A DNA stretch of 30,610 bases, taken from IMG/VR virus record IMGVR_UViG_3300010885_030133, positions 1 through 30,610 of that record; one strand, written 5' to 3'. Below are positions 2,652-30,242 of the stretch, one piece after another; position 1 is the stretch's first letter, and each line of letters opens with the position of its first letter. The translations under genes and the position numbers were made by a program. The DNA comes from a virus. Under the pieces are notes generated by a model. The model was not told the DNA's origin, did no database searches, and saw only the letters and a program-made list of their open reading frames with translations.

Positions 2652-2791
2652 TACCTGTTACTCTCTATTCGTTGTTTTTCTTCTTCTAAATATTGTACTA
2701 ACATTGCAACATAAACTTCTCTCTCAAATGGTATCATATTTTCTATATCAGCTAATGAATAATTATGGTATTGCATCAGCGCAAAATTCAT
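2651..2791 (-). CDS. 46-codon ORF between gp26 and tape measure; probable -1 frameshift extension of gp26
   Basis: The ORF reads MNFALMQYHNYSLADIENM then PFEREVYVAMLVQYLEEEKQ and RIESNR, stopping at TAA 2653-2651, which overlaps the tape-measure ATG by one base. The ATG at 2791 has no Shine-Dalgarno sequence. The same frame is open upstream without a stop to the T-run at the end of gene 26 (2833), adding LINLSHESLYNFYK. It therefore most likely reaches the ribosome by -1 frameshifting, giving a gp26 fusion of about 297 residues. Helical, acidic and basic short extensions like this just before the tape measure are usual in the tail-assembly chaperone pairs of other phages (lambda G/GT, P2 E/E+E'). 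It sits where T4 has gene 51, but similarity to T4 gp51 is not claimed. Independent initiation at 2791 remains possible. Confidence 0.8.
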   Translation of the reverse strand: MNFALMQYHNYSLADIENMIPFEREVYVAMLVQYLEEEKQRIESNR

Positions 2792-2829
2792 CTTATAAAA
2801 ATTATAAAGTGATTCATGAGAGAGATTAA

Positions 2830-3543
2830 TTAAAAAAAACTGTTAAGGCCCTCTAACACTTTATGGTGTTCTTTATTACATACTGGACACTTATAATCAA
2901 TTGCATGCTTTAACTTTGGCATGGTTTCAAAAAATGTTTGAATTTTTTCAAATTGATCAGATGTTAAGTTATTAAGAAATTCAGTTAATTCTGTTTTGCT
3001 TTGATCCTTAGCCGCAAATACTTCTGTTGAATTGTAGATATAATCAATACATTCAACAACGATATTAAATACTGAATCTATATCATTTGTATTTAATGAC
3101 TCTAGCTTTTTTACAACTTCCATTGTAGGATATTTCATTGTAATACCTACGTCATCAAACAATTCAATTTTAGTAGTATGATTTTCTGGTGTTTGTACGT
3201 TTAACTTAAGCAGATCAATTTTTACTGGAGTTATAGCTTTTTCATCTACGCATGTATCACATTTAAGAGTAAGATCAATAACTTCTCCTACAGATCTAGC
3301 TCTAATTTGAGTAAAAACATACTCTAAATCGAATGTAGCAAGAGCATTAACATCAATGTCATCCTTTACGCATGATTTAATTACTTCTTTAAGAGAATCA
3401 ACCATAACAGTTGCATCTTCAGATTGCTGTGCAATCAATAAAGCTTTCTCTTCTTTAATCAAAAAGGGTCTAAATTTTATTTGCTTCTTAGTTGAAGGAA
3501 CTGTTAAGCTATAAATTGGTGTACTATTAATTGGTAATGCCAT
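2830..3543 (-). CDS. 26: gp26-like baseplate hub assembly protein / tail-assembly chaperone
   Basis: The 237-aa product has the characteristic N-terminus of the T4 base plate protein family (PF12322 type): MALPINSTPIYSLTVPSTKK then FRPFLIKEEKALLIAQQSED. The middle is helical; CDTC sits near residue 131 and CPVC near residue 220, giving four cysteines that could bind one zinc. T4 gp26 (208 aa) is needed to build the baseplate hub. The ATG at 3543 is preceded by GGGAGA and lies one base after the gp16 stop. The protein ends GLNSFF at a slippery T-run, and a -1 shift would add 60 residues. Position directly before the tape measure fits a chaperone of the tape measure. Confidence 0.92.
   Translation of the reverse strand: MALPINSTPIYSLTVPSTKKQIKFRPFLIKEEKALLIAQQSEDATVMVDSLKEVIKSCVKDDIDVNALATFDLEYVFTQIRARSVGEVIDLTLKCDTCVDEKAITPVKIDLLKLNVQTPENHTTKIELFDDVGITMKYPTMEVVKKLESLNTNDIDSVFNIVVECIDYIYNSTEVFAAKDQSKTELTEFLNNLTSDQFEKIQTFFETMPKLKHAIDYKCPVCNKEHHKVLEGLNSFF
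2833..2854 (-). promoter_or_regulatory. Candidate programmed -1 ribosomal frameshift site at the end of gene 26
   Basis: On the minus strand the zero-frame codons are AGT TTT TTT TAA. This gives the slippery heptamer T_TTT_TTT at 2839-2833 directly before the stop codon. An SD-like AGAGGG lies at 2854-2849, nine bases upstream of the heptamer, similar to the stimulator spacing known for E. coli dnaX. A slip of -1 leads into TTA ATT AAT and on through the 46-codon ORF without a stop. Only a weak AT-rich hairpin is visible downstream. The run of eight T residues could also permit polymerase slippage. Confidence 0.75.
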
Positions 3544-3544
3544 A

Positions 3545-3982
3545 TCATTCTCCCGAATTCAGTTTTTGAATCATTTTATTGAGTTCGCTGGTTGACCCAA
3601 CGAATATCGCGTTATTATTTGTTACATTTTTAGCTGGATCTGCGCTATCTTTAGCACTAGGTGTATCCAACTTTTGTTTCTGTTTATGCAACTCAAGTAA
3701 TTGACTATTTATGTCACTTAACTGTTTAATTAAATTGCCAACTACTTCAAAGGCTCTAGGATGTTCAGAAGATTTTGCAACCTCTAAGGCATGCATTAAA
3801 GCTTCTTCACCTGTCTGTAATAATCCATGTAGGTTACTTCGAGTCTTGTCATAGTCATGTTCAATCTTTTCAGATTGTTTATCCGTATGAGGTAATACAA
3901 CCTCTCCTGTTCGCATAATGACTTCACCTTCTTTCACAGGTTCCATATCAAATACCTGTGACAAATTATTATCAATTTTCAT
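3545..3982 (-). CDS. 16: Terminase small subunit (gp16-like)
   Basis: The 145-aa protein matches T4 gp16 (164 aa), the DNA-recognition part of the packaging motor that regulates the gp17 ATPase/nuclease. Matching pieces are DYDKTRSNLHGLLQTGEEAL (T4: DYGVVRRNMHFQQQML), AKSSEHPRAFEV, the helix SDINSQLLELHKQK, and the C-terminal NNAIFVGSTSELNKMIQKL (T4: QNATVFMGSPTELMDEI). The central part is two helices expected to form the antiparallel coiled coil of the oligomeric ring. It lies between the holin and gp26 on the minus strand, apart from any gene 17, which is absent from this window. In T4 genes 16 and 17 are adjacent, so the placement is a rearrangement. Confidence 0.9.
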   Translation of the reverse strand: MKIDNNLSQVFDMEPVKEGEVIMRTGEVVLPHTDKQSEKIEHDYDKTRSNLHGLLQTGEEALMHALEVAKSSEHPRAFEVVGNLIKQLSDINSQLLELHKQKQKLDTPSAKDSADPAKNVTNNNAIFVGSTSELNKMIQKLNSGE

Positions 3983-3983
3983 T

Positions 3984-4277
3984 TTATTTTTCTTGTTCCT
4001 CTGAACTAGTTAAACCCATCATTTTTTCTTGGCCTCTACTCCAAGCAGTAATACCTAACACAGCACCCATTGCCATATGGAATAAACCAGCGCCCTGTAG
4101 AGTTAGTGGATTCCATGCTGTTATTGGTTGCACATGTACATAAGCTTGAAATACTGCCCAAGCAATAGGAAATAACATAAAGTCGCAAATACAAATTGCC
4201 ATGTACATCCATGCCATAGCAGGACGCCACTTACTGGTTAACCAAGTTTCTTGATTTAATTTTTTACTTGTAACCAT
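3984..4277 (-). CDS. Putative holin (small membrane protein, 3TM/GTA-type)
   Basis: The 97-aa protein has a basic N-terminus with KWRPAMAWMYMAICICDF, a hydrophobic segment at about 19-45, a second hydrophobic stretch at about 61-78 (GLFHMAMGAVLGITAW) and a charged C-terminus (RGQEKMMG...EEQEK). The WRP motif followed by a membrane helix is typical of the 3TM/GTA-type phage holins that permeabilise the inner membrane at lysis. It starts one base after the stop of the tail-tube gene and ends one base before gp16, so it is in the late minus-strand operon. No separate endolysin is present in the window. T4 holin (gene t) is unrelated. Function is inferred from topology and motif only. Confidence 0.72.
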   Translation of the reverse strand: MVTSKKLNQETWLTSKWRPAMAWMYMAICICDFMLFPIAWAVFQAYVHVQPITAWNPLTLQGAGLFHMAMGAVLGITAWSRGQEKMMGLTSSEEQEK

Positions 4278-4278
4278 T

Positions 4279-5001
4279 TTAAGTAAATACGCTTCCTAGT
4301 GCAGTTGTAACATTAGAAGGTTCTGTTTGATATAAATTTGCTCGAGCATTTTCAAATGAGTTTACGCTTCCTTGATAATTAGGAAAGTCAGTAAAATAAT
4401 CATTAGGTATAGCTGCATTTTCTAATTGTTTTTCATTTACATCAACTTCATTTTTAGGATCAGTTGTGTATGATAGCCAATATTTGTAATTCATTGAAAC
4501 TTGTAATTTCATTACTTCTTTTGCTGAATAATCCATGGTGATTGCACCAATAGATTTTGGATAGCATTCATATAAATCTACTTGATATCTTTGTTGAGAA
4601 TTAATATCAAATACCTTTAAAGATATATCTGTTGTGTATCCAGTTGGGCCTTTATAATAATTAAATTTTCTAGTAAATGGATTTTGTATAGAGTTAATCC
4701 AAGTATCAAAGAATAGTTTAGTATGCATTCCATTATCAACATAAAAATTCATTGTTACATTATCAAACAACCTTTCATATGGCATTTCTCTGATTTCGCC
4801 AAATGTTCTAGCTTGCGTTGTGGAAATATTCATTCCTGGTAAAGTAATACTATCGCAATACAATAAAATTTTACGTAAATCCCCAACATAGAAATTATTA
4901 GCCTTAATAACATTTGGCATACCTATTTCTACTTCAAATTTTGAGGATCCCATTAACCCTTCAGCGGCTACTGATCCAATAAAATCGTTTAATGTACTCA
5001 T
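4279..5001 (-). CDS. 54: Tail-tube family protein, probable baseplate tube initiator (gp54-like)
   Basis: The 240-aa protein has a tail-tube fold signature (T4 gp19/gp54 type): an N-terminal SSKFEVEIGMP strand, LLYCDSITLPGMNISTTQAR, REMPYERLFDNVTMNFYVDN, FFDTWINSIQNPF, then YECYPKSIGAITMDYSA and a closing strand VSMNYKYW. These proteins form hexameric rings; gp54 sits on gp48 and starts tube polymerisation. Its length lies between T4 gp19 (163 aa) and gp54 (320 aa). The C-terminal 50 residues are polar and extended. It overlaps the preceding gene by ATGA (5001-4998). A true tail tube (gp19) cannot be excluded, but the setting among baseplate genes rather than beside a sheath gene favours gp54. 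Confidence 0.72.
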   Translation of the reverse strand: MSTLNDFIGSVAAEGLMGSSKFEVEIGMPNVIKANNFYVGDLRKILLYCDSITLPGMNISTTQARTFGEIREMPYERLFDNVTMNFYVDNGMHTKLFFDTWINSIQNPFTRKFNYYKGPTGYTTDISLKVFDINSQQRYQVDLYECYPKSIGAITMDYSAKEVMKLQVSMNYKYWLSYTTDPKNEVDVNEKQLENAAIPNDYFTDFPNYQGSVNSFENARANLYQTEPSNVTTALGSVFT

Positions 5002-5597
5002 GAGTTTATCGCTCTCTTAGAATCTGACCATACTACTTGTTTTCTGGCACCTACAAATGATTCAACTGGAAGTAACATTGCTGTTGCCCAGTCATTTGCT
5101 TCTACTTTTCTAAATGTAGACCTAACATGTTCATCAAGGTATTGTTTAATACATGGTTCTGCTGCTTTATATTTTGATACTCCATTAATTAAATCCCATG
5201 AGTATCTTATTTTTGTAGTAGCATCCATTTTATCATTTGTTTGAAATTGCATTAATCTATCAAGTAAAACAACACGAAGTTGATACGGTAAATAATGCAT
5301 GTTTAAACCAATAAAACCACCTGGTGTTTTCTTATATGGAAATACTAAAGGAAACTTATCCCAGTACGGTAATGTATCTTTATGCTTGGCATCATAGAAA
5401 AACATATATAAATTACCAGGCATTACACTAGCTTTCATCATGCTAGGATCAGACTTCATGATCTTATTTGGCGTAATTTGTTGACGACTAATCAACAATA
5501 ACTGTTGGTCAAACCATGTCTTGGATTTACGCGCAGCCTTATGCAAATCATATTGATTGCGCTCAAATACATTTATAAGAGTTTCTTGTTTGGCCAT
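4998..5597 (-). CDS. Conserved-looking 199-aa protein of unknown function in the head/tail assembly operon
   Basis: I do not recognise a T4 counterpart. The N-terminus is basic and helical (FERNQYDLHKAARKSKTWFD). A compact middle section contains PGNLYMFFYDAKHKDTLPYW, FPLVFPYKKTPGGFIGLNMH and YLPYQLRVVLLDRL, aromatic and well ordered. A C-terminal part follows with YLDEHVRSTF and WATAMLLPVESF. There is no signal peptide, membrane helix or obvious catalytic motif. I recall similar YDPKHKDTLPY/GLNxHYLP proteins in other marine T4-like phages, also without a function, so a virion or assembly role is the best guess. It is translationally coupled to the gp54-like gene (ATGA) and is the first gene downstream of a late promoter box. 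Confidence 0.85.
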   Translation of the reverse strand: MAKQETLINVFERNQYDLHKAARKSKTWFDQQLLLISRQQITPNKIMKSDPSMMKASVMPGNLYMFFYDAKHKDTLPYWDKFPLVFPYKKTPGGFIGLNMHYLPYQLRVVLLDRLMQFQTNDKMDATTKIRYSWDLINGVSKYKAAEPCIKQYLDEHVRSTFRKVEANDWATAMLLPVESFVGARKQVVWSDSKRAINS

Positions 5598-5683
5598 AAA
5601 AATAGTTTACTTTAATTCCGATTTATGTTACTATAACTATAAGGGGTCGGTTTAGTTATTACTAGTATATATTACTAGTATAT
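5598..5683. repeat. Leader region with 13-bp tandem repeat and a hairpin
   Basis: ATTACTAGTATAT is repeated head to tail at 5658-5670 and 5671-5683; each copy contains the 8-bp palindrome TACTAGTA. Next to it ATAACTA (5633-5639) pairs with TAGTTAT (5653-5659) around a 13-base loop with GGGG. No ORF fits here. The block lies just downstream of a minus-strand late promoter box and upstream of the 199-aa gene, so it would form that gene's mRNA leader. Confidence 0.8.
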
Positions 5684-5688
5684 TTATA
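5681..5688 (-). promoter_or_regulatory. T4-like late promoter box TATAAATA for the minus-strand operon
   Basis: The minus strand reads TATAAATA, the exact T4 late promoter consensus, overlapping the gp4 stop codon (5686-5684). By T4 geometry transcription would start near 5675, giving a leader of about 80 bases before the 199-aa gene and serving gp54, holin, gp16, gp26 and the tape measure. Confidence 0.65.
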
Positions 5689-6124
5689 TACCTAATTCGC
5701 GTTCAGTAATGATCATGAATACCCATCCTCTATCTTTACAGTATTCTTCTGCAGCTTTCCATTTAGATTGATTCTTAATAAATGTCATAGATTCACTAAT
5801 GTATCGTCTTGTCTGTTTTCCTGGGTATTTTGGAGGAACAGTTTGTCCTAATGGTTTTACTTCTACCAAATAAGTTTTAATAGATCCGTCACGTGATCTA
5901 ACTTGAAGCTTAAAATCAACAAAGTATCTATGTAACCTATTGTCTGTACCACACCTATATGGTATTACTGTTTCTTCTGAGGAATACTTTAATACATTAA
6001 CAGATGAATCACACCACCGCATAAATTTTAGTTCCCATGAAGATCTATAGATAATATTTGACGGATCTCCCGAATACTTTTCTGGGTATTTTGGGTTAAA
6101 TTTTCCTTGATGATATGAGGCCAT
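5684..6124 (-). CDS. 4: Head completion protein (gp4-like, PD-(D/E)XK nuclease fold)
   Basis: The 146-aa protein matches T4 gp4 (150 aa), which acts on filled heads before tail joining. The N-terminus YHQGKFNPKYPEKYSGDPSN then IIYRSSWELKFMRWCD mirrors T4 (GFFKPKNPDKYEGNPANIIYRSGWE). A nuclease-like set of acids is visible: Glu31 (SWE), Asp70 (YFVDF) and Glu88-x-Lys90 (LVEVKP), the arrangement of TnsA/PD-(D/E)XK folds. The C-terminal helix KWKAAEEYCKDRGW and final strand VFMIITERELGI complete the fold. ATG is at 6124, preceded by a late promoter-like box at 6166-6159 but no clear ribosome-binding site. It is the first gene on the minus strand, divergent from gp48. Confidence 0.93.
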   Translation of the reverse strand: MASYHQGKFNPKYPEKYSGDPSNIIYRSSWELKFMRWCDSSVNVLKYSSEETVIPYRCGTDNRLHRYFVDFKLQVRSRDGSIKTYLVEVKPLGQTVPPKYPGKQTRRYISESMTFIKNQSKWKAAEEYCKDRGWVFMIITERELGI

Positions 6125-6128
6125 GGTA

Positions 6129-6136
6129 TATAAATA
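6129..6136 (+). promoter_or_regulatory. T4-like late promoter box TATAAATA for the gp48-gp53-gp27-gp5 operon
   Basis: An exact TATAAATA lies in the divergent gap between gp4 and gp48. T4 geometry puts the start near 6142, 37 bases before the gp48 ATG (6179), with an AGG (6168-6170) as a weak ribosome-binding site. Confidence 0.75.
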
Positions 6137-6158
6137 AATGATAAGACATATAACCTAC

Positions 6159-6166
6159 TATTTATT
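6159..6166 (-). promoter_or_regulatory. Late promoter-like box AATAAATA for gp4
   Basis: The minus strand reads AATAAATA, one base from the T4 late consensus. The predicted start near 6153 gives a leader of about 29 bases to gp4. It faces the plus-strand box at 6129-6136, so the two leaders would overlap by about 12 bases. Confidence 0.5.
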
Positions 6167-6178
6167 CAGGTAAAAATA

Positions 6179-7390
6179 ATGCCAACATCAGATCCACAAA
6201 CCGCTCCTAATTTTGCGGCACCGACAAAACCGGTTCCAAGTGCAGGTAACAGCGCGTCAAAATTAAACTATCAACCTAGAAACGCTGCAGGGGTTGGAGT
6301 TGGTACTACTTTCAATGAAAAGAATCAGTATACAATTGAACAATATTCATATCCAAATGATATTATGGATAAACAATATGGATATAATAATGTTATATTT
6401 TATATTAATGTATCATCTGACTCAAAATTACTTAAAGATGGTAAGAATGTAACTGTTGCTGATTTAACTCCTAGAGAACGTGGTGATCTAATTGGATCAA
6501 ACTTATCAAAAGGCCAAGTGATGACTGGTTCTGCCGCTGGAGGAATTGGTGCTGCAGGAGCAGCAGGTACAGCAGGCGGCGTATCAGCTTATGGTACAAC
6601 AAACAACGCTGGAAATACAACTGGTGTTGTTGGAGCGGTTGGGACGGGCGCTAAGACAGCAGCAAAGGTTGCTGCTGGTGCTGGTGTAGTATCTGCTGTT
6701 GGAGTAGAAGCCGTAGGTTTAGAAACTTCTAATTTTTCGCGTCAGCAAAAACGTTTATCTGCAGCAATTGCATTACATGTACCTAATCAAATAAGCATTA
6801 GATACGGTATGAATTACGGTGAAGAAGAAACTAGTACATTTGCTATGGGAGCCGCTGGTGGAGAACAAATTGGTAAAGCTTTAAGTGGTGCAGCGCAAAC
6901 AGATCAAGTCAAAGGTGTTGCATCAGCAATCGCCGCTGCAGTAGCTCTACAAAAGACTCCACAGGCTGGAGCAATCTCAGTTGCATCAGGTTTAGCTGCA
7001 AATCCTAGAAAAGAACAAGTATTCAAATCAGTAGATTTTAGAACATTTTCATTCTCATATGATTTTTACCCAAGAGACGCGGATGAAGCTCAAAATGTAT
7101 TGAATATTATTCAGATGTTTAAATTACATATGCATCCTGAATTTAAAGATGCTTCAAATTTCTTATATATCTATCCATCTGAATTTGATATTTTCTATTA
7201 TCAAGGTGGTAAAGAGAATATGAATCTGCATCGTCATACTTCTTGTGTACTTACAGAAATGACAGTTAATTATGCTCCGCAAGGACAATTTACTACGTTT
7301 GATAATGGCATGCCAACTCAAATTAATATTAATTTAAACTTTAGAGAACTTGCTCTTCTTACCAAAGAGAAAATACAGGACGGATTCTAA
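6179..7390 (+). CDS. 48: Baseplate tail-tube cap (gp48-like)
   Basis: The 403-aa protein (T4 gp48 is 364 aa) caps the baseplate hub and joins it to the tail tube. The N-terminal 50 residues are polar and disordered. A first strand region has YPNDIMDKQYGYNNVIFYIN. Residues about 116-185 are a Gly/Ala/Val-rich insert. The tail-tube domain follows: ALHVPNQISIRYGMNY, NPRKEQVFKSVDFRTFSFSY, DFYPRD.DEAQNVLNIIQMFK, YPSEFDIFYY, VLTEMTVNYAPQGQF and the last strand ININLNFRELALLTKEKI. The NPRxExxF...FxFxYxFxPRxxxE signature is typical of tube-cap proteins. It starts the plus-strand operon and its stop overlaps the gp53 start by one base (taATG). Confidence 0.88.
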   Translation: MPTSDPQTAPNFAAPTKPVPSAGNSASKLNYQPRNAAGVGVGTTFNEKNQYTIEQYSYPNDIMDKQYGYNNVIFYINVSSDSKLLKDGKNVTVADLTPRERGDLIGSNLSKGQVMTGSAAGGIGAAGAAGTAGGVSAYGTTNNAGNTTGVVGAVGTGAKTAAKVAAGAGVVSAVGVEAVGLETSNFSRQQKRLSAAIALHVPNQISIRYGMNYGEEETSTFAMGAAGGEQIGKALSGAAQTDQVKGVASAIAAAVALQKTPQAGAISVASGLAANPRKEQVFKSVDFRTFSFSYDFYPRDADEAQNVLNIIQMFKLHMHPEFKDASNFLYIYPSEFDIFYYQGGKENMNLHRHTSCVLTEMTVNYAPQGQFTTFDNGMPTQININLNFRELALLTKEKIQDGF

Positions 7391-14363: not shown

Positions 14364-14756
14364 ATGGCAAGAAACACTAGAACATTTTCAGATTTAGACT
14401 TAAACTTTATAGCACATCCTGGCACTGGAGATGTGACTTTGAAGTATGACGAACAGTCAATTAAACAGTCACTTAAGAATTTAATTCTTACACAAAACTA
14501 TGAGAGACCATTCCATTCAGAAATTGGTTCCCAGTTACGCGGTCTATTATTTGAAAATGTATCTCCAATGTTAGATATATTGCTTCAAAGAGCAATAGTT
14601 GATACTATTACAAACTTTGAACCTAGAGTAAGATTATTAAATGTAATAGCAAATGTATCTCCAGATAATAATGAAGTATACGTAACAATAGAATTTACAA
14701 TCATTAATACAACTACTCCAATTAAAGTAGATTTAGTACTTAAGAGAACACGATAA
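14364..14756 (+). CDS. 25: Baseplate wedge protein gp25-like
   Basis: The 130-aa protein is almost the same length as T4 gp25 (132 aa), the most conserved wedge part, also shared with type VI secretion (TssE). Motifs are SDLDLNFIAHPGTGDVTLKY, SIKQSLKNLILTQNYERPFH, SEIGSQLRGLLFENVSPM, and NFEPRVRLLNVIANVSPD with the hallmark EPR, then YVTIEFTIINT. The ATG at 14364 is chosen over an upstream in-frame ATG (14301), which lies inside the PAAR gene and adds 21 residues unlike gp25. No Shine-Dalgarno is visible; ATACC precedes the ATG. It overlaps gp6 by one base (taATG). Confidence 0.95.
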   Translation: MARNTRTFSDLDLNFIAHPGTGDVTLKYDEQSIKQSLKNLILTQNYERPFHSEIGSQLRGLLFENVSPMLDILLQRAIVDTITNFEPRVRLLNVIANVSPDNNEVYVTIEFTIINTTTPIKVDLVLKRTR

Positions 14757-16633
14757 TGGCTAATATTAGAATACCTACCACTGATCTAGACTTTGATCAG
14801 ATTAAGACTAACTTAAAAACATTTTTAAGTGGTCAAACTGAATTTAAAGATTATAATTTTGAAGGCTCAGCAATGAATGTCTTATTAGATGTTCTAGCCT
14901 ATAATACTCATTATAATGCGCTATATAAAAATTTAGCAGTTAACGAAATGTTTCTTGATTCAGCTTCTAAAAGAGCAAGTGTTGTATCTCGTGCAAAAGA
15001 AATTGGTTATATTCCATCTTCTGCTACTGCATCAACTGCATATGTTAAATTAACTGTGTCTAACACTTCAACAACACCTGCTACTTTAATTTTACCAGCG
15101 TTAAGCCCATTCTCTAGTACATATGATGGTAACACATATACATTTTATACTACACAAAATATAATTACAACATTAAATGCCGATGGTTCTACATACACGT
15201 TTTCTGGTTTAGATGACCAAGGTATACCTATTAAAGAAGGCACTCCATTACAGTACAAATATAATGTGTCTGATGGTCAACGTTATATTATTCCAAATAT
15301 GGATGTGGATTTAAGTACTCTTACAGTTCGTGTACAAGATAGCGCATCATCAGCAACATTTACAACATTTAATAGAAATGAATACTTGCTTGCTCTTACT
15401 GCAACCGATCCTATTTACTTTATTAAAGAAATAGATAATGAATTATATGAATTAGAATTTGGTAATGGTGTTATTGGTAAAGCACTTCAAACCGGTAATA
15501 TAGTAACATTAAACTATCTAACTTGTAATAAATCAGCGCCAAATGGAGCTCAAACATTTAATTATCAAGGGACAGATTTATTAGGTGGTACTGTAGTAGT
15601 TGAACCAAGAATAATTGCTAGTGACGGTTCAGATGTTGAAGATATTGAATCAATTAGATATAATGCGCCAAGGGCTTATTCAACACAAAATCGTGCAGTA
15701 ACTACTGATGATTATAAAGCACTAATTAATTCAAATTTTTCTAATGCAGATTCTATATCTGTTTGGGGTGGAGAAGATAACTTACCACCAGTATATGGTA
15801 AAGCATTTATTTGTGTTAAACCAAAGAACGCAACTATTCTTACACAAGCAGAAAAAGAATATATTAAACGAGAAATTCTTAAAAAGAAAAATGTTGTTTC
15901 AATTACACCAGAATTAGTTGATCCAACTTATATTGATTTACAAGTGGATGTTACTGCATACTATAATCCACGTTTAACTGTTTACTCAGCAGAACAACTT
16001 AAATCATTAATATATCAAACTATTATAGATTACAATAATAATACATTAAATAAATTTGATGGTATTTTCCGTTTCTCAAAATTATCCGCATTAATTGATA
16101 ATACAGAACCATCTATTGTATCTAATATTATGACTCTTAAACTGCACCGTCAAGTAGAAGTAAAATACAATGCAACTGCAAATTATTTAATAAACCTTGC
16201 AAATCCAATTTATGATTCAGGTGTGCCTGAAGAATCAATAATATCATCTGGATTCTATATACCTAATAGTACAAATATTATGTATCTTGAAGATCTTCCA
16301 GATGTTTCAGCAGTTGGTGGTAAAGCTACTGGTTTTGGCTCACTAAGAATGTTTTATTACTTTAATGATAATAAAGTATACACTTCTGATATTATTGGTA
16401 CGGTTGATTATATAAATGGGATTATAACTATTAATGGGTTAAATATTACTGGTATTGATGGTACTGCATTTGAGTTTATTATTAAACCACAATCAAATGA
16501 CGTTGTAGCTATTCGTAATCAACTTATTAAGATTCCTGCTGAAACATTAAATGTTCAGATTATTCTTGATCGTGTTGCTTCCGGTGATGCAGCAGGTAAT
16601 ACTAATTATATCTTTACTTCTAGTAGAAATTAA
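14756..16633 (+). CDS. 6: Baseplate wedge protein gp6-like
   Basis: The 625-aa protein (T4 gp6, 660 aa) forms the ring that holds the baseplate together; related to gpJ of P2. The N-terminal signature is clear: IPTTDLDFDQIKTNLKTFLS, then EFKDYNFEGSAMNVLLDVLA, YNTHYNALYKNLAVNEMFLD, SASKRASVVSRAKEIGYIPS. The middle has SIRYNAPRAYSTQNRAVTTD and DYKALI, conserved in the gpJ-like core. The C-terminal part (from about 490) is beta-rich and divergent. It overlaps both gp25 and the 593-aa gene by one base, as in a tightly co-translated wedge operon. Confidence 0.95.
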   Translation: MANIRIPTTDLDFDQIKTNLKTFLSGQTEFKDYNFEGSAMNVLLDVLAYNTHYNALYKNLAVNEMFLDSASKRASVVSRAKEIGYIPSSATASTAYVKLTVSNTSTTPATLILPALSPFSSTYDGNTYTFYTTQNIITTLNADGSTYTFSGLDDQGIPIKEGTPLQYKYNVSDGQRYIIPNMDVDLSTLTVRVQDSASSATFTTFNRNEYLLALTATDPIYFIKEIDNELYELEFGNGVIGKALQTGNIVTLNYLTCNKSAPNGAQTFNYQGTDLLGGTVVVEPRIIASDGSDVEDIESIRYNAPRAYSTQNRAVTTDDYKALINSNFSNADSISVWGGEDNLPPVYGKAFICVKPKNATILTQAEKEYIKREILKKKNVVSITPELVDPTYIDLQVDVTAYYNPRLTVYSAEQLKSLIYQTIIDYNNNTLNKFDGIFRFSKLSALIDNTEPSIVSNIMTLKLHRQVEVKYNATANYLINLANPIYDSGVPEESIISSGFYIPNSTNIMYLEDLPDVSAVGGKATGFGSLRMFYYFNDNKVYTSDIIGTVDYINGIITINGLNITGIDGTAFEFIIKPQSNDVVAIRNQLIKIPAETLNVQIILDRVASGDAAGNTNYIFTSSRN

Positions 16634-19153: not shown

Positions 19154-22036
19154 ATGTCAATAAGTTATGCTTTATTTAAGTCTACATTTAAAAAGTCTAT
19201 TACAGAGTCAATCTATAATGAGATAACTAATAAGACTTCTAGATATTATCATTTTCTTGGTAAGGAAAATTCTTGGACAGATTTTTTAAGTCCATTTATT
19301 CCTTCACAGAGTTTACTAGTTGGTGATGTTCCTGGAGCTCCACAAGATAATTTTAGATATGATTTACATGTTAGAAGAGATATTCTATCAGTAAAATCAA
19401 TTACTCCATCTGATGTTGCTTATGTAGTACCTAGAATTGATTGGGTTAAGGATACTGTGTATGATATGTACGATGATAATATTGGTCCATTTTCTATAAC
19501 AGGTACTACTGCACCATCTTATTCTAAAGCAGAAAAATTAGAAGATGCCAGATTCTACGTATTAACTTCAGAATTTAATGTATATAAATGCCTTGATAAT
19601 AACTATAATTCAGCATCTACAATTCAACCTACTGGTACTTCAAGTGATGCCATTGTTTCTGGAGATGGTTATATTTGGAAATTTATGTACACAATTCCTG
19701 TTTCATTGAGAAATAGATTTTTGTCTAGTCAATATATGCCAGTAACAACTGCATTAAAACAACAATTTTATTCTAATGGTGCTATCACATCAATTACTGT
19801 AGAAAGTGGTGGATCTAGTTATGTCTCTGAAGATATTGCTGCTGGTGCTATTAGTACTTCAACCAGTAGCAAAATTGTTACTGGATATTCAACAGCATTT
19901 TTATCAGTAACACAAGACAATATTTCAGTTTTTAGACAAAATTATCTATTAAAGACTCTTACTGGTACAACTATTGGTCAAATTGATACAATAGATAGTA
20001 ATACTCAAATAACATTAAAGGCTAATGCTACAGTAGCTATTTCTTCTGGAGCACCAGCGGGGTTTAAAATTACACCAGCAGATTCTAGTGGTACTGCTTT
20101 AGCAGCAAGATGCGTTATAACTGGTGAAGGAACTCTTGAAAAAAATCCATATGTAATTCAAAGTTCTATTATAATTAATAATCCTGGTGATGGATATGGG
20201 GTTGCTCCAAAAATATATTTTTCAGCGCCTACAATTATTAGCGGTTCACAGATTAATGCAACTGGTAATACTACAGTAAGCGGTGGTTTAATTACTGTTG
20301 CTAGTCTTGATAATGCTGGTTATGGATATGATGCAGCACCAAATGCACCAGTAATTACTATGGATCCTCCTATGGGTTCAGTAACAAATTATACATTTCA
20401 ATATTGGGCAGCTTCTACTACATATACTACAACATATAGTGCACAGGTTGGTACTATATTATATTACTATGATATTCCTAATAAAAAGGGTAATTTTTAT
20501 AAAGTAACGACAGGCGGTACTTCAAGTTCAACTACAGGCCCAACTCACACTAGCGGATCAGCAACTAATGGTGGAGCAACATTATTATGGGTTGGTACTA
20601 ATACTTGGTTAAGACAAACCGCCTATCAACAATATAGTGTTATTCAGTCTGGTAATGCCTTTTATATTAATACTGCAGCATCTGGACAAAGTTCAGGTGA
20701 TACTCCTCCAAGTAATACAGTTAAAGGAGTTGGTGCGACAAATGGTGGTTTAAATTTAGTTTATATTGGAAGCTTAGGTTCACTTAGTCCTGCACTTAGT
20801 AGAACCACAGCTGATATTACACCAATTATTAGTAACGGACAAGTAACTAATTTTATTATTAATGATGGAGGAATTGGTTATACCAATGCTTCTATTTCAG
20901 TATATGATATTAATCATCCAGTAATTGATGCCACTCTTCAAGCTATAGATCCAAAGTACGCAAAAATTACAGCAAACTTTTCTATAGGTAATATTAATAC
21001 ATTACAAGCAAACGTTGAATTACTTGCTAAAAAAGGAACTATTGAATGTATTAAGATGGTAAATCCTGGATCAGGATACAGTGATGCAATCGTTAATATT
21101 ATTGGAGATGGTTCAGGCGCAGTTGCTACACCAATTATTGTTGGTGGTAGAATTACAGCTATTCAAATGGATCAAAATAATAAAGGACTGGGCTATACTT
21201 GGACTGATATTCAAATTACTGGAAATGGAACTGGTGCCTCAGCTAGAGCTATTATGTCTCCTTTAGGCGGTCATGGAAAAAATGCAGTTGATGAATTAAA
21301 TGCAAGTTCTTTAGTTTTTTATAGTTCATTTTCACGCGTTAAAAACCAAGGATTAGTGATAAATAATGATTATAGAAAAGCTGGTTTGTTAAGAAATATT
21401 AATCAATATGGTACATATAAAAGATTTACAGAAGATACTGGTTCTGGTTGCATATTAATAACTGGTACATTTGATGTTACTAAATTAGATTATGACATGC
21501 TTTTATTAAAAAAAGAACAACCAGTGTCAAATGTATTTTTATCAGGCGGAAAGGCTAATAGTAGTACCATAACATTTAATTCTGTATATCAAGGATTAAA
21601 TGGTGCAAAAATTACTGGTGTAGGAATTCCTCCTAATACTTATATTAAGAGCGGCGCAAACACATCTACAGTATATTTGACAAATAAATTAACAGCTCAA
21701 GCGTCAGGTAATTATATTACAACTTCTAGTAATTATAAAAAATATAGAATTGTAGAATTTACCGCGCCAACCGCAACACAATTAGGATCTATTCTTTTAT
21801 CAGTATTTAATAACTTTGATATTTCTCCTAATGATGAATTACTTACTACATCTAAAGTTATTAATCAAGATGGCACTATAACAGAACTACCAAATGGCAA
21901 TACAATTAATATTGCAACTGTTAAACAAAGAACAGTTGATCCTTTTTCTGGTGATTTATTATTTTTAACGGTAAGAGAATCATTTTCACCAACAGCAGAC
22001 CAAATTATTACCTTAAGAACAGTTGTAACGGTTTAA
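19154..22036 (+). CDS. 8: Baseplate wedge protein gp8-like, greatly enlarged by repeats
   Basis: The 960-aa protein has a T4 gp8-like N-terminus (T4 gp8, 334 aa): WTDFLSPFIPSQSLLVGDVP, AYVVPRIDWVKDTVYDMYDD, FNVYKCLDN and VSGDGYIWKFMYTIP (T4: VIPRRDW, VYRCLD, PGDGYVWEYLFEIP). After residue 205 come insertions: a module at 232-305 shared with the 593-aa protein, about six G-x-GY beta repeats (for example PGDGYG, NAGYGYDAAP, GGIGYTN, PGSGYSD, KGLGYTW), two W/Y modules at 417-539 shared with the 352-aa fibre, and a G-x-G-I-P module at 798-860 shared with the 1993-aa protein. The return to conserved sequence (GHGKNAVDELNAS...FSRVKNQGL) at 707-760 shows gp8-type C-terminal parts are split by inserts. 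Confidence 0.9.
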   Translation: MSISYALFKSTFKKSITESIYNEITNKTSRYYHFLGKENSWTDFLSPFIPSQSLLVGDVPGAPQDNFRYDLHVRRDILSVKSITPSDVAYVVPRIDWVKDTVYDMYDDNIGPFSITGTTAPSYSKAEKLEDARFYVLTSEFNVYKCLDNNYNSASTIQPTGTSSDAIVSGDGYIWKFMYTIPVSLRNRFLSSQYMPVTTALKQQFYSNGAITSITVESGGSSYVSEDIAAGAISTSTSSKIVTGYSTAFLSVTQDNISVFRQNYLLKTLTGTTIGQIDTIDSNTQITLKANATVAISSGAPAGFKITPADSSGTALAARCVITGEGTLEKNPYVIQSSIIINNPGDGYGVAPKIYFSAPTIISGSQINATGNTTVSGGLITVASLDNAGYGYDAAPNAPVITMDPPMGSVTNYTFQYWAASTTYTTTYSAQVGTILYYYDIPNKKGNFYKVTTGGTSSSTTGPTHTSGSATNGGATLLWVGTNTWLRQTAYQQYSVIQSGNAFYINTAASGQSSGDTPPSNTVKGVGATNGGLNLVYIGSLGSLSPALSRTTADITPIISNGQVTNFIINDGGIGYTNASISVYDINHPVIDATLQAIDPKYAKITANFSIGNINTLQANVELLAKKGTIECIKMVNPGSGYSDAIVNIIGDGSGAVATPIIVGGRITAIQMDQNNKGLGYTWTDIQITGNGTGASARAIMSPLGGHGKNAVDELNASSLVFYSSFSRVKNQGLVINNDYRKAGLLRNINQYGTYKRFTEDTGSGCILITGTFDVTKLDYDMLLLKKEQPVSNVFLSGGKANSSTITFNSVYQGLNGAKITGVGIPPNTYIKSGANTSTVYLTNKLTAQASGNYITTSSNYKKYRIVEFTAPTATQLGSILLSVFNNFDISPNDELLTTSKVINQDGTITELPNGNTINIATVKQRTVDPFSGDLLFLTVRESFSPTADQIITLRTVVTV

Positions 22037-22073: not shown

Positions 22074-25000
22074 ATGGCATATGATTTTAATAAAGAACCA
22101 TACTATGATGACTTTGACGAGAAAAATCAATATTATCGTATATTATTTAAACCGGGTTATGCTGTACAAGCTAGGGAATTAACACAACTTCAAACTGCGT
22201 TACAAGACCAGATTAAGAAATTTGGTACCAATATATTTGTAGATGGTACAACAATAATTGGTGGTGAAAAGGCATTTGAAACATCTCTTATTGCTTTAAG
22301 AATTAATCTATCGATTAATAGTGTTCCTTTAACAGCAGATGATGTTAATTCATTCAACAATACTATAATTACAGGTGCTACTAGTGGTGTAACCGGTGTT
22401 GTTAAACAAGTTATATTTGGTACAGATTATCATACACTAGTAGTTAAAGTTACCTCAGGTGATGCATTTTCTGCGGCAGAAAATATTTCAAATAACGCAT
22501 TAGTTGTTAAAACCGCAACTATTGCTTCTGCAAACCATTATAATAATTGTACATTATTCTCAGTTAAAACTGGTGTGTTCTTTGTTAATGGAGCATTTGT
22601 ATATTCTCCAGCCCAGTCTATTTTAGTTGATCAACTAGTAAGTGTTCCTGATGGTTCATTTGTACCCGGTACATTATATAGAATTTCAAAACTAGGTACA
22701 ACATCATGGTCAACACTTGGTGTGCCATCTGGTCAAACTCCAGCAGTTGGTACTACATTTGTTGCAAATGGAGCAGGTAATTCAAATAATACTGGTACAG
22801 TTTTAAATGTAAGTTCTAAGAATATTGGTTTTGTTGTTAATGAATCTACAGTATCTTCAGAAGAAGATGACAATTTATTAGATAACGCTCAAGGTTCATT
22901 CAATTATTCTGCACCAGGAGCTGATCGTTGGAAGATTGAATTACAATTAACAGTTAAGGGTCTTACAGAATCAGTAGATAATTTTATTGAATTAGCGCGC
23001 GTAGAATATGATCAATACATAATCACGGCACCAAATACAGTATATAATACACTTGGTAAAGAATTGGCTCGTCGTACATTTGATCAAGCTGGCAATTATA
23101 CTGTTTCTAATTTCCCATTAATCTTAAAAGATAATATTGGTGGTGATGCAAATAAGTTTACTGCCGCACTTGATCCGGGTAAAGCATATATTTCAGGGTT
23201 TGAGTTTGAAACTAAAACCCAAAGTTATTTGACTCTTGATAGAGCTAGAACTACTCAAGTAGAAACTAACCCCGCTGTTTCACCAGTATACGGTAATTAT
23301 GTTAATGTAAGCGGAGTTACTGGAGAAATTGTTACAACTAATAATGCAGCAACTGGATCATATTCAACTGTTGAATTACATAGTGTCCTTAAATCAAGCG
23401 TATCTGGCACAACGTATCGAATTGGTACAGCCCAAGTAAGATATCTTAAATACTCATCAGGTACAGTCGGCGGAACATATACTCCTCCTACTGTAACATC
23501 TGGAATATTAACATCTGCTGGTAATACTGCTGCAGTTTATATAATGTATTTGTTTAATGTAAAAATGGATTCAGGTCAAGTATTTGCTTCAACTAAATCA
23601 ATAGTAGTACGTACTGGTACATTATTTAGTGCGGATATTGATCCAACTAGCTCTGTGGCTGGCATTGGTACTGTTTTAGGTGGTAGTGATAAAACTGGTT
23701 TAGTATTTCCGTTAAACCGCGATTTTATAAGTAAAGTTAAAGATGGAAGTAATTTGTCTCAAACAAATTATTACTTTCAAAGAACATATCAAAATCAAAC
23801 GGTACAGTCTAATGGAACTATAATTTTAAATACTGCATCGGGAAGTGAACGTTGGGATGGTGGTAATACTACTTATTCAACACAAAAAGTTAAAACAAGT
23901 TATCATGTAGTAGTTACTACTGGTTCAGGTAGTTTTACTGTAGGACAAGTAATTGATATGACTGCCTCAGGAAGAAGTATTTCTGGTGGTACAATTACTC
24001 CAAATGCACAACAAGCATTAACACTTAATATTACTGGTACTGGCTCAAGCGCAGCTGGTGTAATAGTTACTATTATAGCAACTATAATTGGATCTAATCA
24101 ACCAGAAAGAACTAAAACTCTTTCTGGTTATCAATTAGTTGTAGTTTCTTCTAGCGCTTCTGGATTAGGCACTAGATATTCATTAAATAAAGCTGATGGA
24201 TATGATTTACTTGCAGTATATAATACTGGTACAAATAATGCAAGTGGAGTTACGGTTAATTCCACTACTGGTGTTATTACTTGGGGGGCAGTAACTAGAA
24301 CAGACGTAACCCGTAATTATACATTTGATAATGGCCAACGCGATGATATATACGATCATGCAAGTATTGTTGCTTCATCGGCACCATTACAAACTGCAAA
24401 TGAATATTTAGTTGTAGTATATCGTAACTTTACTCATGCGGGCGGCGGTAATAATAATACTGGATTTTTAAGCCGTGATTCATATTCTATAGCTTATGAT
24501 AATATTCCAAAATTTACATCTCCTACTACTGGTATTACTTATAATTTACGCGATTGTTTAGATTTTAGACCACGTAGAACAGATTCTGCAACAACATTAG
24601 ATTATGGTCAATTGCCGGATCCAAACTCTAATGTTGAATCTACATTTCAATATTATTTGGGCCGCAAAGATGTAATTCTTGCAATGCCAAGTAAACAGTT
24701 TTCAGTTAAAACTGGAACTCCATCAATTAATCCACAAACGCCAGTTGTAGATTCAGATGGAATGCAACTGTATATATTAACTATTCCGCCATGGACTTCT
24801 GATTTAAATTCAGTTTCTGTACAATATGTTGATAATCGCCGTTATACAATGAGAGATATTGGCAAAATTGAAAAACGTGTAGGTAATATTGAATATTACA
24901 CACAATTAAGTATTCTTGAAAAACAAGCAAAAGATGACTCAGTACTTGGTTTAGTTGGTACAACAACCACACAAAAATTTAAAAATGGTATTATTGTAGA

Positions 25001-28000
25001 TCCATTTTCTGGTCATAATATTGGAGATTCTACTAATCCAGATTATCGTTGTGCTATTGATTTACAACGCCAAGAAATGCGAGCCTTTGCTGAGACATAT
25101 AGTTCAGAATTTTCTTATACTCAAACTGGACAAACAACATCAACTAGAAGTGGAGATTTAGTAACATTACCATATACAGAATCTGCATTTGCAATACAAC
25201 CATTTGCAACTACTTCAATGAATATTAACCCATTTAATATTATTTCTTTTGTTGGTAATATTTCTTTAGAACCATCACAAGATTTATGGGTAGATACTCT
25301 TACAGTTCCACCATTAAATATTACTAATGATGTAAGTCAAACAGTTAATGTATTTAAACCAATTCAAACTAGAGTAGTTGGTGGTTGGTGGTGGGGACAA
25401 AATTGGGGTTGGAACGCCGGCTGGGGTTGGGGTGGTTGGGGTTCAGGTTGGTGGGGCGGTTGGAATGGTTTTGGTTGGGGTGGCTGGTGGGGTGGTTGGG
25501 GTAGTACATCACAAAGTGCTACTACAGTAACTTCTACTGCATCAACATCATTAAATACAGAATCATTAGGTACTAATGTAATTGATTTACAATTCTTACC
25601 CTTTATTCGTGCTAGAACAATTTTTGGTAAAGGTTCTTTATTAAAACCTAAGACACGTCATTATCCATTCTTAGATGAAAAATCAATTGGTGGGCAAGTT
25701 CGTCCATTAATGCAAGTTTATATAAACAATATTTCAGGAACATTTAATGATTCTGTTGGTGTTTATGATTCTTTAACCTTTAGAACTGTTTCTGTATCTG
25801 GTACAGTACAATGTACTGCAAGTACTGCACTATATACTCCAGTTACTAAAGCTACTGCATCTAACCCAGATAGTACAAAACAGCGTATTATTTACATCTA
25901 TAATGCAAGTGCTGCTGCAAGTATTGCTGTTGGTCAATATGTAGTTGGACCTAATGGATCTGGTATAGTTACTGCTGTTGGTTATCAAGGTACTAATTCT
26001 GGAACATATGGTTTAGTACCAACTGTTACTACAACATACACATATTCAACTGGTGGCGCAATTGGTGCTACTACAATGACATTAACTGGAACTTATAATG
26101 GTCAAAACGGATACTTTATTAGTGGTGTTGGTGTTCCTATTGGCACACAAATTACTGCTGGAGCAGGTACTACAACCATTACATTAAGCCAACCAATTAC
26201 AATTCAAGCTACTGGTAATTATTCAATTTCAAATATTCCACCAGTTAATACACCACTTTATACTGATGAATTTGGTTTAGTTGCATTTGAATTCCAAATT
26301 CCTGGCGGAACATATCGTTCCGGTGAACGTAAAGTTCGGTTGATTGATAATGTTGATAATAATACAACTACATCACAATCTTCTGGTGATGCAACTTACT
26401 TCGCATTAGGTCAAATTAAGACTGAACGTGAAACACTATTAACTACTAGAACTACTACTACAACTAATACATCACAAACAACAGTTACACAATTTGTTGG
26501 TTGGGGAGATCCATTAGCTCAGTCATTCTTAGTAGATGCAATGGCTTATCCTAATGGTCTATATCTATCATCTGTTGATTTATATTTTAGAACTAAATCT
26601 GTAAATAATATTCCAGTAACAGTTGAATTGCGTAAGATGATTAATGGTTATCCAGAGTCATCATCTACAATAACATTCGGTAGAACAACTTTATTCCCAG
26701 AAAAAGTTAATATTTCTGAAACCGCTGCAACTGCAACTAATTTTAAATTCTCATCTCCTGTGTACTTACCAGCTGGTGAATATTGCTTTGTAGTTATGTC
26801 AAATTGTAATGAATATGAAGCATTTATTTCTGTAATGGGTGAAACAATTGTTGGCACTAATACTCGGGTTACTCAACAACCGTATGCTGGTGTGATGTTT
26901 AAATCACAAAATGGTACTACATGGAATGCAATGCAGGAAGATGATATTAAATTTAGTTTAAATCGCTGCGTATTCTCCTATGCTGGAAATGCAGTATTTA
27001 CTGTTAATGATCCACCAAGTTATTCAACAACAGGTTCTATTAGTGCGGGCCAATATGTAATTTCCAACGTTCCTGCTGCAGCATTTAATAATATTGGTAT
27101 TGGTATGTTAGTAACGGGTACTGGTATACCTAATGGTACAACAATTGCTGCAACAGGTACTGGTGGTGTAGTAACTTCTTATACTATTGGCGCCGCTACT
27201 GGTACAATTGCATTATCTGCTGCAGCAACTGCAACAACTTCTGCATTTACTTTATATGGTCAATATGAATTTGGTACTTTAAATATTAATTCTTCTATTA
27301 TTTCTCCATCAGGAACTAATATTTCATTGCTTGCTAAAACAATGAATAAATCTGATGGTATTTATGATTCTACCGGTGTAGCAATTGTTAATAAAACGGA
27401 TCTTGACTTTTCTTCAATTAAGAAAGTTATTCCAGTTGCACTTACATCTGGTAGTAATACTCCATCATTACAAATTTCTGCCTCATTAGTTACTACATCT
27501 GATGCAGTTTCTCCAGCTATTGATGTTGGTAGATTTACTAGTGTAATGATTAAGAATGTTATTAATAACGATATAACTTCAGAAGGTGCAACAGTTGGTG
27601 TTTCTGGTACAACTTTAACAATTACTAGTCCAGCCATTCAAGGTGGAAATGCATTGTGCAAATATATTACTAAGAAAGTTACACTTGCTGCTGGGTTTGA
27701 TTCATCTAATTTAGTTGCTACTATGACAGTATATAAACCATATGGTACTGATATTAAAGTATATTATAAAACATTACCAACTGAAAAAACATCTCCTATT
27801 GATTCTGAGTCATGGATTCCAATGATTCCAGAGAATAATGCGACAGTTCCATATTCTACATCTACTTCTGATTATAAGGAACATAGGTTCTTTCCACCAA
27901 CTGCATATTCTGCTAATGGTGTATTTAATACTCCTAATAATGATCCTATTCCTGCGCGATTTAATAATTTCCAATTTAAGGTTGTATTAACTAGTATTAA

Positions 28001-28055
28001 TGAAGCAGTAACCCCAAGAGTTAGAGATTTCCGTGGAATTGCTTTGGACCAATAA
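22074..28055 (+). CDS. Giant DUF4815-type virion structural protein with a Trp/Gly-rich tract (1993 aa)
   Basis: The N-terminus (FNKEPYYDDFDEKNQYYRIL, FKPGYAVQARELTQLQTALQ, DQIKKFG) and GSFNYSAPGADRWKIELQL at about 275-293 are typical of the large DUF4815 structural proteins of marine T4-like phages, thought to be baseplate or fibre-base parts near the gp9/gp10 position. Residues 197-246 insert the same small module as in gp53. Residues about 830-1060 are conserved (YNLRDCLDFRPRRTDSATTL, RYTMRDIGKIEKRVGNIEYY). Residues 1103-1144 are a tract of 15 Trp and 19 Gly out of 42. Residues 1323-1388 and about 1649-1731 are G-x-GIP modules. About 1473-1650 hold WGDPLAQSFLVDAMAYPNG...VDLYFRTKS...MVELRK-type beta sandwich with QPYAGVMFKSQNGTTWNA. 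No start alternative is needed; GGAAG precedes the ATG. Confidence 0.88.
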   Translation: MAYDFNKEPYYDDFDEKNQYYRILFKPGYAVQARELTQLQTALQDQIKKFGTNIFVDGTTIIGGEKAFETSLIALRINLSINSVPLTADDVNSFNNTIITGATSGVTGVVKQVIFGTDYHTLVVKVTSGDAFSAAENISNNALVVKTATIASANHYNNCTLFSVKTGVFFVNGAFVYSPAQSILVDQLVSVPDGSFVPGTLYRISKLGTTSWSTLGVPSGQTPAVGTTFVANGAGNSNNTGTVLNVSSKNIGFVVNESTVSSEEDDNLLDNAQGSFNYSAPGADRWKIELQLTVKGLTESVDNFIELARVEYDQYIITAPNTVYNTLGKELARRTFDQAGNYTVSNFPLILKDNIGGDANKFTAALDPGKAYISGFEFETKTQSYLTLDRARTTQVETNPAVSPVYGNYVNVSGVTGEIVTTNNAATGSYSTVELHSVLKSSVSGTTYRIGTAQVRYLKYSSGTVGGTYTPPTVTSGILTSAGNTAAVYIMYLFNVKMDSGQVFASTKSIVVRTGTLFSADIDPTSSVAGIGTVLGGSDKTGLVFPLNRDFISKVKDGSNLSQTNYYFQRTYQNQTVQSNGTIILNTASGSERWDGGNTTYSTQKVKTSYHVVVTTGSGSFTVGQVIDMTASGRSISGGTITPNAQQALTLNITGTGSSAAGVIVTIIATIIGSNQPERTKTLSGYQLVVVSSSASGLGTRYSLNKADGYDLLAVYNTGTNNASGVTVNSTTGVITWGAVTRTDVTRNYTFDNGQRDDIYDHASIVASSAPLQTANEYLVVVYRNFTHAGGGNNNTGFLSRDSYSIAYDNIPKFTSPTTGITYNLRDCLDFRPRRTDSATTLDYGQLPDPNSNVESTFQYYLGRKDVILAMPSKQFSVKTGTPSINPQTPVVDSDGMQLYILTIPPWTSDLNSVSVQYVDNRRYTMRDIGKIEKRVGNIEYYTQLSILEKQAKDDSVLGLVGTTTTQKFKNGIIVDPFSGHNIGDSTNPDYRCAIDLQRQEMRAFAETYSSEFSYTQTGQTTSTRSGDLVTLPYTESAFAIQPFATTSMNINPFNIISFVGNISLEPSQDLWVDTLTVPPLNITNDVSQTVNVFKPIQTRVVGGWWWGQNWGWNAGWGWGGWGSGWWGGWNGFGWGGWWGGWGSTSQSATTVTSTASTSLNTESLGTNVIDLQFLPFIRARTIFGKGSLLKPKTRHYPFLDEKSIGGQVRPLMQVYINNISGTFNDSVGVYDSLTFRTVSVSGTVQCTASTALYTPVTKATASNPDSTKQRIIYIYNASAAASIAVGQYVVGPNGSGIVTAVGYQGTNSGTYGLVPTVTTTYTYSTGGAIGATTMTLTGTYNGQNGYFISGVGVPIGTQITAGAGTTTITLSQPITIQATGNYSISNIPPVNTPLYTDEFGLVAFEFQIPGGTYRSGERKVRLIDNVDNNTTTSQSSGDATYFALGQIKTERETLLTTRTTTTTNTSQTTVTQFVGWGDPLAQSFLVDAMAYPNGLYLSSVDLYFRTKSVNNIPVTVELRKMINGYPESSSTITFGRTTLFPEKVNISETAATATNFKFSSPVYLPAGEYCFVVMSNCNEYEAFISVMGETIVGTNTRVTQQPYAGVMFKSQNGTTWNAMQEDDIKFSLNRCVFSYAGNAVFTVNDPPSYSTTGSISAGQYVISNVPAAAFNNIGIGMLVTGTGIPNGTTIAATGTGGVVTSYTIGAATGTIALSAAATATTSAFTLYGQYEFGTLNINSSIISPSGTNISLLAKTMNKSDGIYDSTGVAIVNKTDLDFSSIKKVIPVALTSGSNTPSLQISASLVTTSDAVSPAIDVGRFTSVMIKNVINNDITSEGATVGVSGTTLTITSPAIQGGNALCKYITKKVTLAAGFDSSNLVATMTVYKPYGTDIKVYYKTLPTEKTSPIDSESWIPMIPENNATVPYSTSTSDYKEHRFFPPTAYSANGVFNTPNNDPIPARFNNFQFKVVLTSINEAVTPRVRDFRGIALDQ
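25380..25505 (+). repeat. Trp/Gly codon tract with nine GGGG runs (G-quadruplex candidate)
   Basis: The segment codes for 42 residues made almost only of Trp, Gly, Asn and Ser. The coding strand has nine GGGG runs (for example at 25393, 25405, 25423, 25429, 25438, 25453, 25477, 25489, 25498), several spaced by 2-8 bases. This is a sharp change from the AT-rich DNA around it. The mRNA carries the same runs. Confidence 0.9.
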
Positions 28056-29339: not shown

Positions 29340-30242
29340 ATGCCAAATTTATATATTAAAGATTCTAATTCTTGGTGTAATGCGCAAAATTTATACGTAA
29401 AAGATGCAGGAGTTTGGAGATTAATCAAAACAGGTTACACTAAAGTTAATGGTGTGTGGCAAAAGGTTTGGGGTAATACTGGTACTGCATCTTATTCTGC
29501 GGGAATTGCTACTACATTTACAGTTCCTGCTGCAGTGTATTCTGTTACATTTACTTTGGTTGGTGGAGGTGGCGGTGCTGGTGGCGGTGATGGCGGTTAT
29601 GGAAGTTACAGCGGAAATTCAGGTCAATATGTAACAGTCACTTATGCAGTTACACCAGGACAACAGTTTAAAATTTCTCCTGGAAGCGGAGGCGGATATG
29701 GCCTTGGCGGAATTAGGGGTTATGGAGGTGGTTCTGCTGGTACTAATGCTTTAGGTGGTGGATGGAATGGTGGTACAGGTGGAAATGCTGGTAGTTATGA
29801 TGGTTCTTCAGGCGCTGGCGGCGGTGGAGGTGCGGCTTCAGTTTTAACTACAGGTGCAGGTGTTGTTTTGGCTGTAGCATATGGTGGAGCTGGTGCTGGC
29901 GGTGCGGGTAGCAGAGGCGCGGTGGTTGGATATTCATATAATCAATATAGTCCAGTTACAGGTCCTAATGGCCAAAATCATCCAGGAGATGGAGGCGGAG
30001 GAGGTGGTGGCGGAGGTGGTTATAGCCAAGGACTAGGTGGATATTATGGTGGTGGATTAGGTAGTTCAGGCGGATATAGTGGCATCCCAACTACTTATTA
30101 TTGGTCAGCAAATGATGTTGGCGGGGCTTATGGTGATAATGGAACTGGTTTAGTCCCAGCTGGAGCGACTTCTGGGGCTATAGGTAATGGTGGCGGAAGT
30201 TCCGCTGCTGGTGGTAATGGTTATATAACTATATCATATTAA
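29340..30242 (+). CDS. Glycine-rich receptor-binding adhesin-like protein (300 aa)
   Basis: Residues 1-45 hold two 'LY(I/V)KD...W' units and a GYTKVNGVWQKVW unit, an attachment domain common at the start of marine phage fibre-tip proteins. After a strand pair (ATTFTVPAAVYSVTFTLV) the rest is glycine-rich: GGGGGAGGGDGGYG, GSGGGYGLGGIRGYGGG, GAGGGGGAASVL, ten consecutive Gly codons near residue 222, and GNGGGSSAAGGNGYITISY at the end. This matches Gly_rich_2-type domains and recalls the polyglycine-sandwich gp38 adhesins of T-even phages, where loops between the Gly runs choose the host receptor. Gly codons are mixed (GGA, GGT, GGC), so the tract is not a simple DNA repeat. The start is 2 bases after the fibre stop. 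Host range is likely decided here (inference). Confidence 0.82.
   Translation: MPNLYIKDSNSWCNAQNLYVKDAGVWRLIKTGYTKVNGVWQKVWGNTGTASYSAGIATTFTVPAAVYSVTFTLVGGGGGAGGGDGGYGSYSGNSGQYVTVTYAVTPGQQFKISPGSGGGYGLGGIRGYGGGSAGTNALGGGWNGGTGGNAGSYDGSSGAGGGGGAASVLTTGAGVVLAVAYGGAGAGGAGSRGAVVGYSYNQYSPVTGPNGQNHPGDGGGGGGGGGGYSQGLGGYYGGGLGSSGGYSGIPTTYYWSANDVGGAYGDNGTGLVPAGATSGAIGNGGGSSAAGGNGYITISY

Follow-up and report, generated by a model that had tools for sequence, protein, structure and literature searches.

A tryptophan/glycine tract at a tryptophan-rich loop of a putative phage baseplate protein of the DUF4815/VrlC family

Baseplate genes of a T4-like virus

The window analyzed here is the whole of IMG/VR virus record IMGVR_UViG_3300010885_030133 (30,610 nt, positions 1 to 30,610). 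By gene content the virus is T4-like, with gp6- and gp8-like wedge genes, a tail tube, a baseplate hub and a tail-tube cap, and the cultured phages nearest to it by gp6 are the Pelagibacter phages HTVC008M (41%) and Mosig and the Methylophilales phage Melnitz. The features that bear on the argument are as follows.

14756..16633, + strand: gp6-like baseplate wedge protein (phrog_219, E=8.5e-173; 41% identity to HTVC008M)
19154..22036, + strand: gp8-like baseplate wedge protein, just 5′ of the DUF4815 gene (phrog_438, E=1.5e-80)
22074..28055, + strand: DUF4815/VrlC-like putative baseplate protein, 1993 aa (PF16075, E=1.5e-58; phrog_358, E=0; phi812 ORF65, E=8.5e-50)
25008..25043, + strand: site A, aa 979-990, the position of a Trp insert in a sister clade; no insert in the window (near-relative alignment)
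25299..25598, + strand: loop B, aa 1076-1175, the variable segment that links WVDT to PFIRAR (131-homologue comparison; low AlphaFold confidence)
25380..25505, + strand: Trp/Gly tract, aa 1103-1144, with 15 Trp, 19 Gly and no charged residue (translation; equivalent in contig L188/L291)
25425..25502, + strand: degenerate 33-bp (2.3 copies) and 9/12-bp tandem repeats in the tract (Tandem Repeats Finder)

Assignment of the 1993-residue protein to DUF4815, already made in the earlier note, is borne out by the Pfam and phrog_358 matches listed above. The Pfam score is 199 bits against a gathering cut-off of 30, and DUF4815 is the only Pfam match of the whole protein, no Pfam model of a carbohydrate-binding module (CBM) or lectin matching the tract. 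Proteins of the DUF4815/VrlC family were matched in 1531 of the phage records searched, and their carriers include phages of SAR11, cyanobacteria, Staphylococcus and Salmonella. By sequence, the only relative with a solved structure is ORF65 of Staphylococcus phage phi812/K, a virion baseplate component according to its PDB entries (9euf, 9eui, 9euj). VrlC of pelagiphages and cyanophages has been proposed as a substitute for T4 gp7 in a two-layered baseplate (PMC7029224). In the window, gp6-, gp7-region and gp8-like genes lie directly upstream of the DUF4815 gene, and the locus is syntenic with those of two relatives, L284 and L291. Family match and wedge-gene neighborhood together mark the window protein as a putative baseplate protein.

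Three further observations concern these genes and their public records. The gp8-like protein (19154-22036) is 37% identical to that of L284 vs. 27% to that of L291, while the DUF4815 protein is nearer to that of L291; these opposite affinities suggest mosaic baseplate modules. Close to the contig end, a small protein (29340-30242, + strand) has a Gly-rich stretch, GGGGGYSQGLGGYYGGGLGSSGGYSG, around aa 223, of a type known from phage tail-fiber adhesins. In the record of Pseudomonas phage Cygsa01 (PP179332.1, L078), a complete DUF4815 frame at ~1501-6303 is unannotated, the single feature listed inside it being a tRNA-Ala on the opposite strand that is probably a false call.

The Trp/Gly tract and its counterpart in a second contig

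Translated in frame, the tract reads GGWWWGQNWGWNAGWGWGGWGSGWWGGWNGFGWGGWWGGWGS, and its 42 residues, 15 Trp and 19 Gly at 25380-25505 are exactly those given in the earlier note. The rest of the protein has 9 Trp in 1951 residues, and the other main ORFs of the window have at most 4 Trp per 42-aa stretch. Such density is indeed as rare as that note had supposed: among the 1674 ORFs of all retrieved loci (1.17 million aa), the next best 42-aa stretch has 14 Trp and the one after it 8. The stretch with 14 Trp lies in contig IMGVR_UViG_3300020147_000021 (L188/L291), found by a DNA pattern scan. Its DUF4815 protein is 46-53% identical to that of the window over aligned segments and carries, at the equivalent position, the 14-Trp tract NGWHWGAQPWAWNNWGWCGYGWGYNNWGWWGGWGTWW, which likewise has no charged residue. 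A complete scan of the viral collection for GWWGGWG returned 34 matches, among which only that of L188/L291 lies inside a DUF4815 gene.

An artifact had been considered from the outset, in the form of a tract absent from all relatives and produced by a frameshift or assembly error. The reading frame is intact and homology to relatives continues past both flanks of the tract, which rules out a frameshift; the equivalent tract in an independent contig rules out both an assembly error and a feature unique to one phage. The repeats within the tract DNA are a trace of local duplication.

Alignment of DUF4815 relatives, proposed earlier as a check, shows an equivalent tract in L188/L291 and, in most other relatives, Trp clusters instead of a Trp/Gly tract. 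Conservation of Trp and Gly spacing had likewise been proposed for testing. Composition is conserved between the two tracts and spacing weakly so, with an alignment as good as the real one in ~1.6% of trials when either tract is shuffled (z=2.3).

A tryptophan hot spot in loop B and its exchange with site A

The tract lies in loop B, a linker of ~100 residues flanked by the conserved motifs LEPSxDxWVDT and PFIRAR, whose length and content differ widely among relatives. We compared loop B and site A on an alignment of 131 non-redundant homologues, the window included, with a loop B cluster defined as two or more Trp inside a 20-residue span. By this definition, 118/131 homologues have a cluster in loop B, 4/131 have one at site A only, 9/131 at neither site and none (0/131) at both. 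Most loop B clusters take an ordered form, W-x2-W-x3-W-x-G (90/131 homologues; for example, LGTVWNNWQTNWSG in HTVC008M), and in an alignment of 57 rows the three Trp and the Gly of this triad each reach 90% conservation or more. With the window left out, Trp makes up 3.47% of loop B and 0.47% of the remainder of these proteins, and for 71% of homologues the Trp count of loop B exceeds that of every other equal-length stretch. Loop B is thus where Trp concentrates in this family and, as ~90% of homologues carry a cluster there, the tract takes a shared family trait to an extreme; the earlier description of its host protein as otherwise ordinary does not hold. The segment WGGWGSGWWG within the tract fits W-x2-W-x3-W-x-G, and we do not claim this as proof of descent from the triad, since so Trp-dense a sequence fits easily by chance.

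Clusters of other forms occur in loop B of the sampled Herelleviridae and Ackermannviridae. Taken one by one, and with the caveat that alignment of the variable loop is uncertain between distant families, the annotated phages sampled from Pelagibacter, Methylophilales, Synechococcus, Ochrobactrum, Listeria and Enterococcus have Trp in mid-loop, as do those from Bacillus, Staphylococcus, Salmonella, Klebsiella and Vibrio. The motifs include RWWLHGG (Listeria P200), QWWRHGG (Enterococcus EFP01), RWWRHN (Bacillus phiAGATE), QWWFQGG (Lysinibacillus), RFWRHN (Staphylococcus K), SSSWWTGG (Pseudomonas Cygsa01) and YGTWRTV...GVWWGYR (Ackermannviridae of Salmonella and Klebsiella). Pseudomonas pf16 has one Trp only and Stenotrophomonas DLP6 a pair.

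Site A, normally 12 residues long, lies ~100 residues upstream of loop B. In a sister clade it holds a W-x3-RRWGWWNAWFNG-x3-W insert, and loop B has at most one Trp. The insert, present in L284, L083, L286 and other near relatives, is 37-40 residues long, has six Trp (RRWGWWNAWFNG...W) and is conserved within the clade. In a tree built without the columns of sites A and B, the window and L291 are sisters (SH-aLRT 99) and group with the site-A clade of 12 rows (100), and triad-bearing proteins fall outside this group. The simplest history would have an ancestral Trp cluster in loop B, which one lineage inflated to the Trp/Gly tract and which the sister lineage lost, bearing its Trp at site A. 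This exchange suggests, rather than proves, a function common to both sites, because it amounts to one or two events at most.

Structure prediction gives no confident fold for the tract, and the loop is predicted to be disordered. AlphaFold2 with 74 aligned sequences returned a pLDDT of ~35-40 across the tract (pTM 0.28). Modeling of a triad-bearing homologue brought no improvement, the helix placed ahead of the triad and the hairpin behind it both being of low confidence. Upstream of the loop, the small beta domain matches residues 404-464 of phi812 ORF65 (Foldseek and structural re-alignment; Z 8.4 over 58 residues, rmsd 1.3), and beyond phi812 the re-alignment gave low-Z rows only.

What the tract may do, and its place in the family

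The earlier note had named three candidate roles, a membrane- or LPS-inserting patch, a carbohydrate-stacking surface and a packing core, and had called none established; all three stay candidates here, and the note did not foresee the Trp cluster shared at this loop by most homologues. Our tentative reading, which we put somewhat short of an even chance, sees the tract as an enlarged tip on a family-wide Trp loop that is predicted to anchor by burying its Trp rings, likely on a virion subunit. The loop would be flexible and would act as a hydrophobic anchor, with its Trp rings buried on the surface of a partner. That partner would most likely be another virion subunit, such as an adjoining baseplate or tail-fiber protein, and not a host-specific receptor, given that Trp clusters of some form turn up in phages that infect Gram-positive bacteria, Gram-negative bacteria or cyanobacteria. 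In the clade of the window, the ordered three-Trp element may have given way to many exchangeable Trp contacts, which would keep composition while letting spacing drift. Several observations weigh against anchoring of this kind: nine of the 131 homologues are clusterless and phi812 ORF65 is without the three-Trp element; the tree shows the exchange from B to A only once; an uncharged tract of 15 Trp is more hydrophobic than docking requires; and the tract scores strongly as a membrane-interface binder. A further formulation seems to us possible if rather unlikely. In it, the DUF4815 protein would depend functionally on a Trp cluster that can move between two loops and can give way to a composition-driven, uncharged Trp/Gly tract, which would be a multivalent hydrophobic anchor to envelope or partner subunit of a kind not previously described in contractile tails.

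The main rival to docking on a virion subunit is contact with the cell envelope, in which a cell-facing tract would partition its Trp into the outer-membrane or LPS surface at landing or baseplate opening and so fix the baseplate during sheath contraction. On the Wimley-White interfacial scale, the uncharged tracts of the window and L188/L291 score -26 and -24 kcal/mol, and the former is by far the lowest 42-aa stretch in the window (the runner-up, in a holin-like protein, scores -9). Homologues in Herelleviridae have moreover been grouped with adsorption proteins (PMC11406892). However, phages of Gram-positive hosts, whose cells lack an outer membrane, carry loop Trp clusters too, and the loops of one such phage and of an ordinary triad bearer are far less interfacial (+2.0 for phage K, -4.6 for HTVC008M), and we consider envelope contact unlikely. 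Stacking of Trp rings on sugars is established in carbohydrate-binding modules, and a CBM-like role on LPS or capsule sugars would draw on the same chemistry. Lectin- and CBM-like folds have been described in the C-terminal half of Herelleviridae VrlC (PMC11406892), but these sit in a different part of the protein from the tract. Sugar stacking also requires a fixed geometry, whereas the tract is predicted to be fold-less and its Trp spacing is hardly conserved, which leaves glycan binding improbable.

Alternatively, the tract could be a largely neutral low-complexity expansion, in which a tolerant linker grew by slippage on a TGGGGT-type seed into a sequence with little function of its own. 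The degenerate 33-bp and 12-bp repeats in the tract DNA and the wide variation of the loop among relatives fit this account. However, the L188/L291 tract is just as loaded with Trp although its DNA contains few repeats (one 24-bp array) and its glycine codons are mixed, which argues for selection at the protein level. Base composition offers no explanation for the tracts either, since both genomes are AT-rich (34% G+C in the window and 39% in L188/L291). As the site is moreover a Trp hot spot family-wide, we regard neutral expansion as quite improbable.

ORF65 of phi812/phage K belongs to the same family by sequence, has a matching small beta domain beside the loop, and carries a Trp at RFWRHN in the equivalent loop, at about residues 612-690, and a second Trp further on; it differs in its length (1152 aa), in having neither a Trp/Gly tract nor W-x2-W-x3-W-x-G, and in its Gram-positive host. 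VrlC of HTVC008M, Mosig, Melnitz and cyanophages shares family, gene order after gp8 and a Trp cluster in loop B, but has the ordered W-x2-W-x3-W-x-G in a Thr/Ser/Arg-rich loop. The L188/L291 tract is shorter than that of the window, repeats less and has Asn, Tyr, His and Pro interspersed among its Trp. In the distant lineage of Vibrio phage VAP7 (Ackermannviridae; MK795384.1, L422), a Trp-rich expansion of loop B (8 Trp in 36 aa) has arisen separately and is Arg-rich rather than Gly-rich.

In a limited literature search, we found no description of the Trp loop, of its W-x2-W-x3-W-x-G form, of the site-A counterpart or of the Trp/Gly inflation, and no paper connecting VrlC with tryptophan; DUF4815 was mentioned in unrelated papers only. 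The site-A insert of the sister clade is likewise undescribed. The protein family is known, and the putative conserved hydrophobic anchoring spot to which its Trp loop points seems not to have been described before. Because the Trp loop is kept across DUF4815/VrlC proteins, it offers a precise site to inspect in the solved structure and to mutate, and the tract in the window illustrates how far such an element can drift with its chemistry retained.
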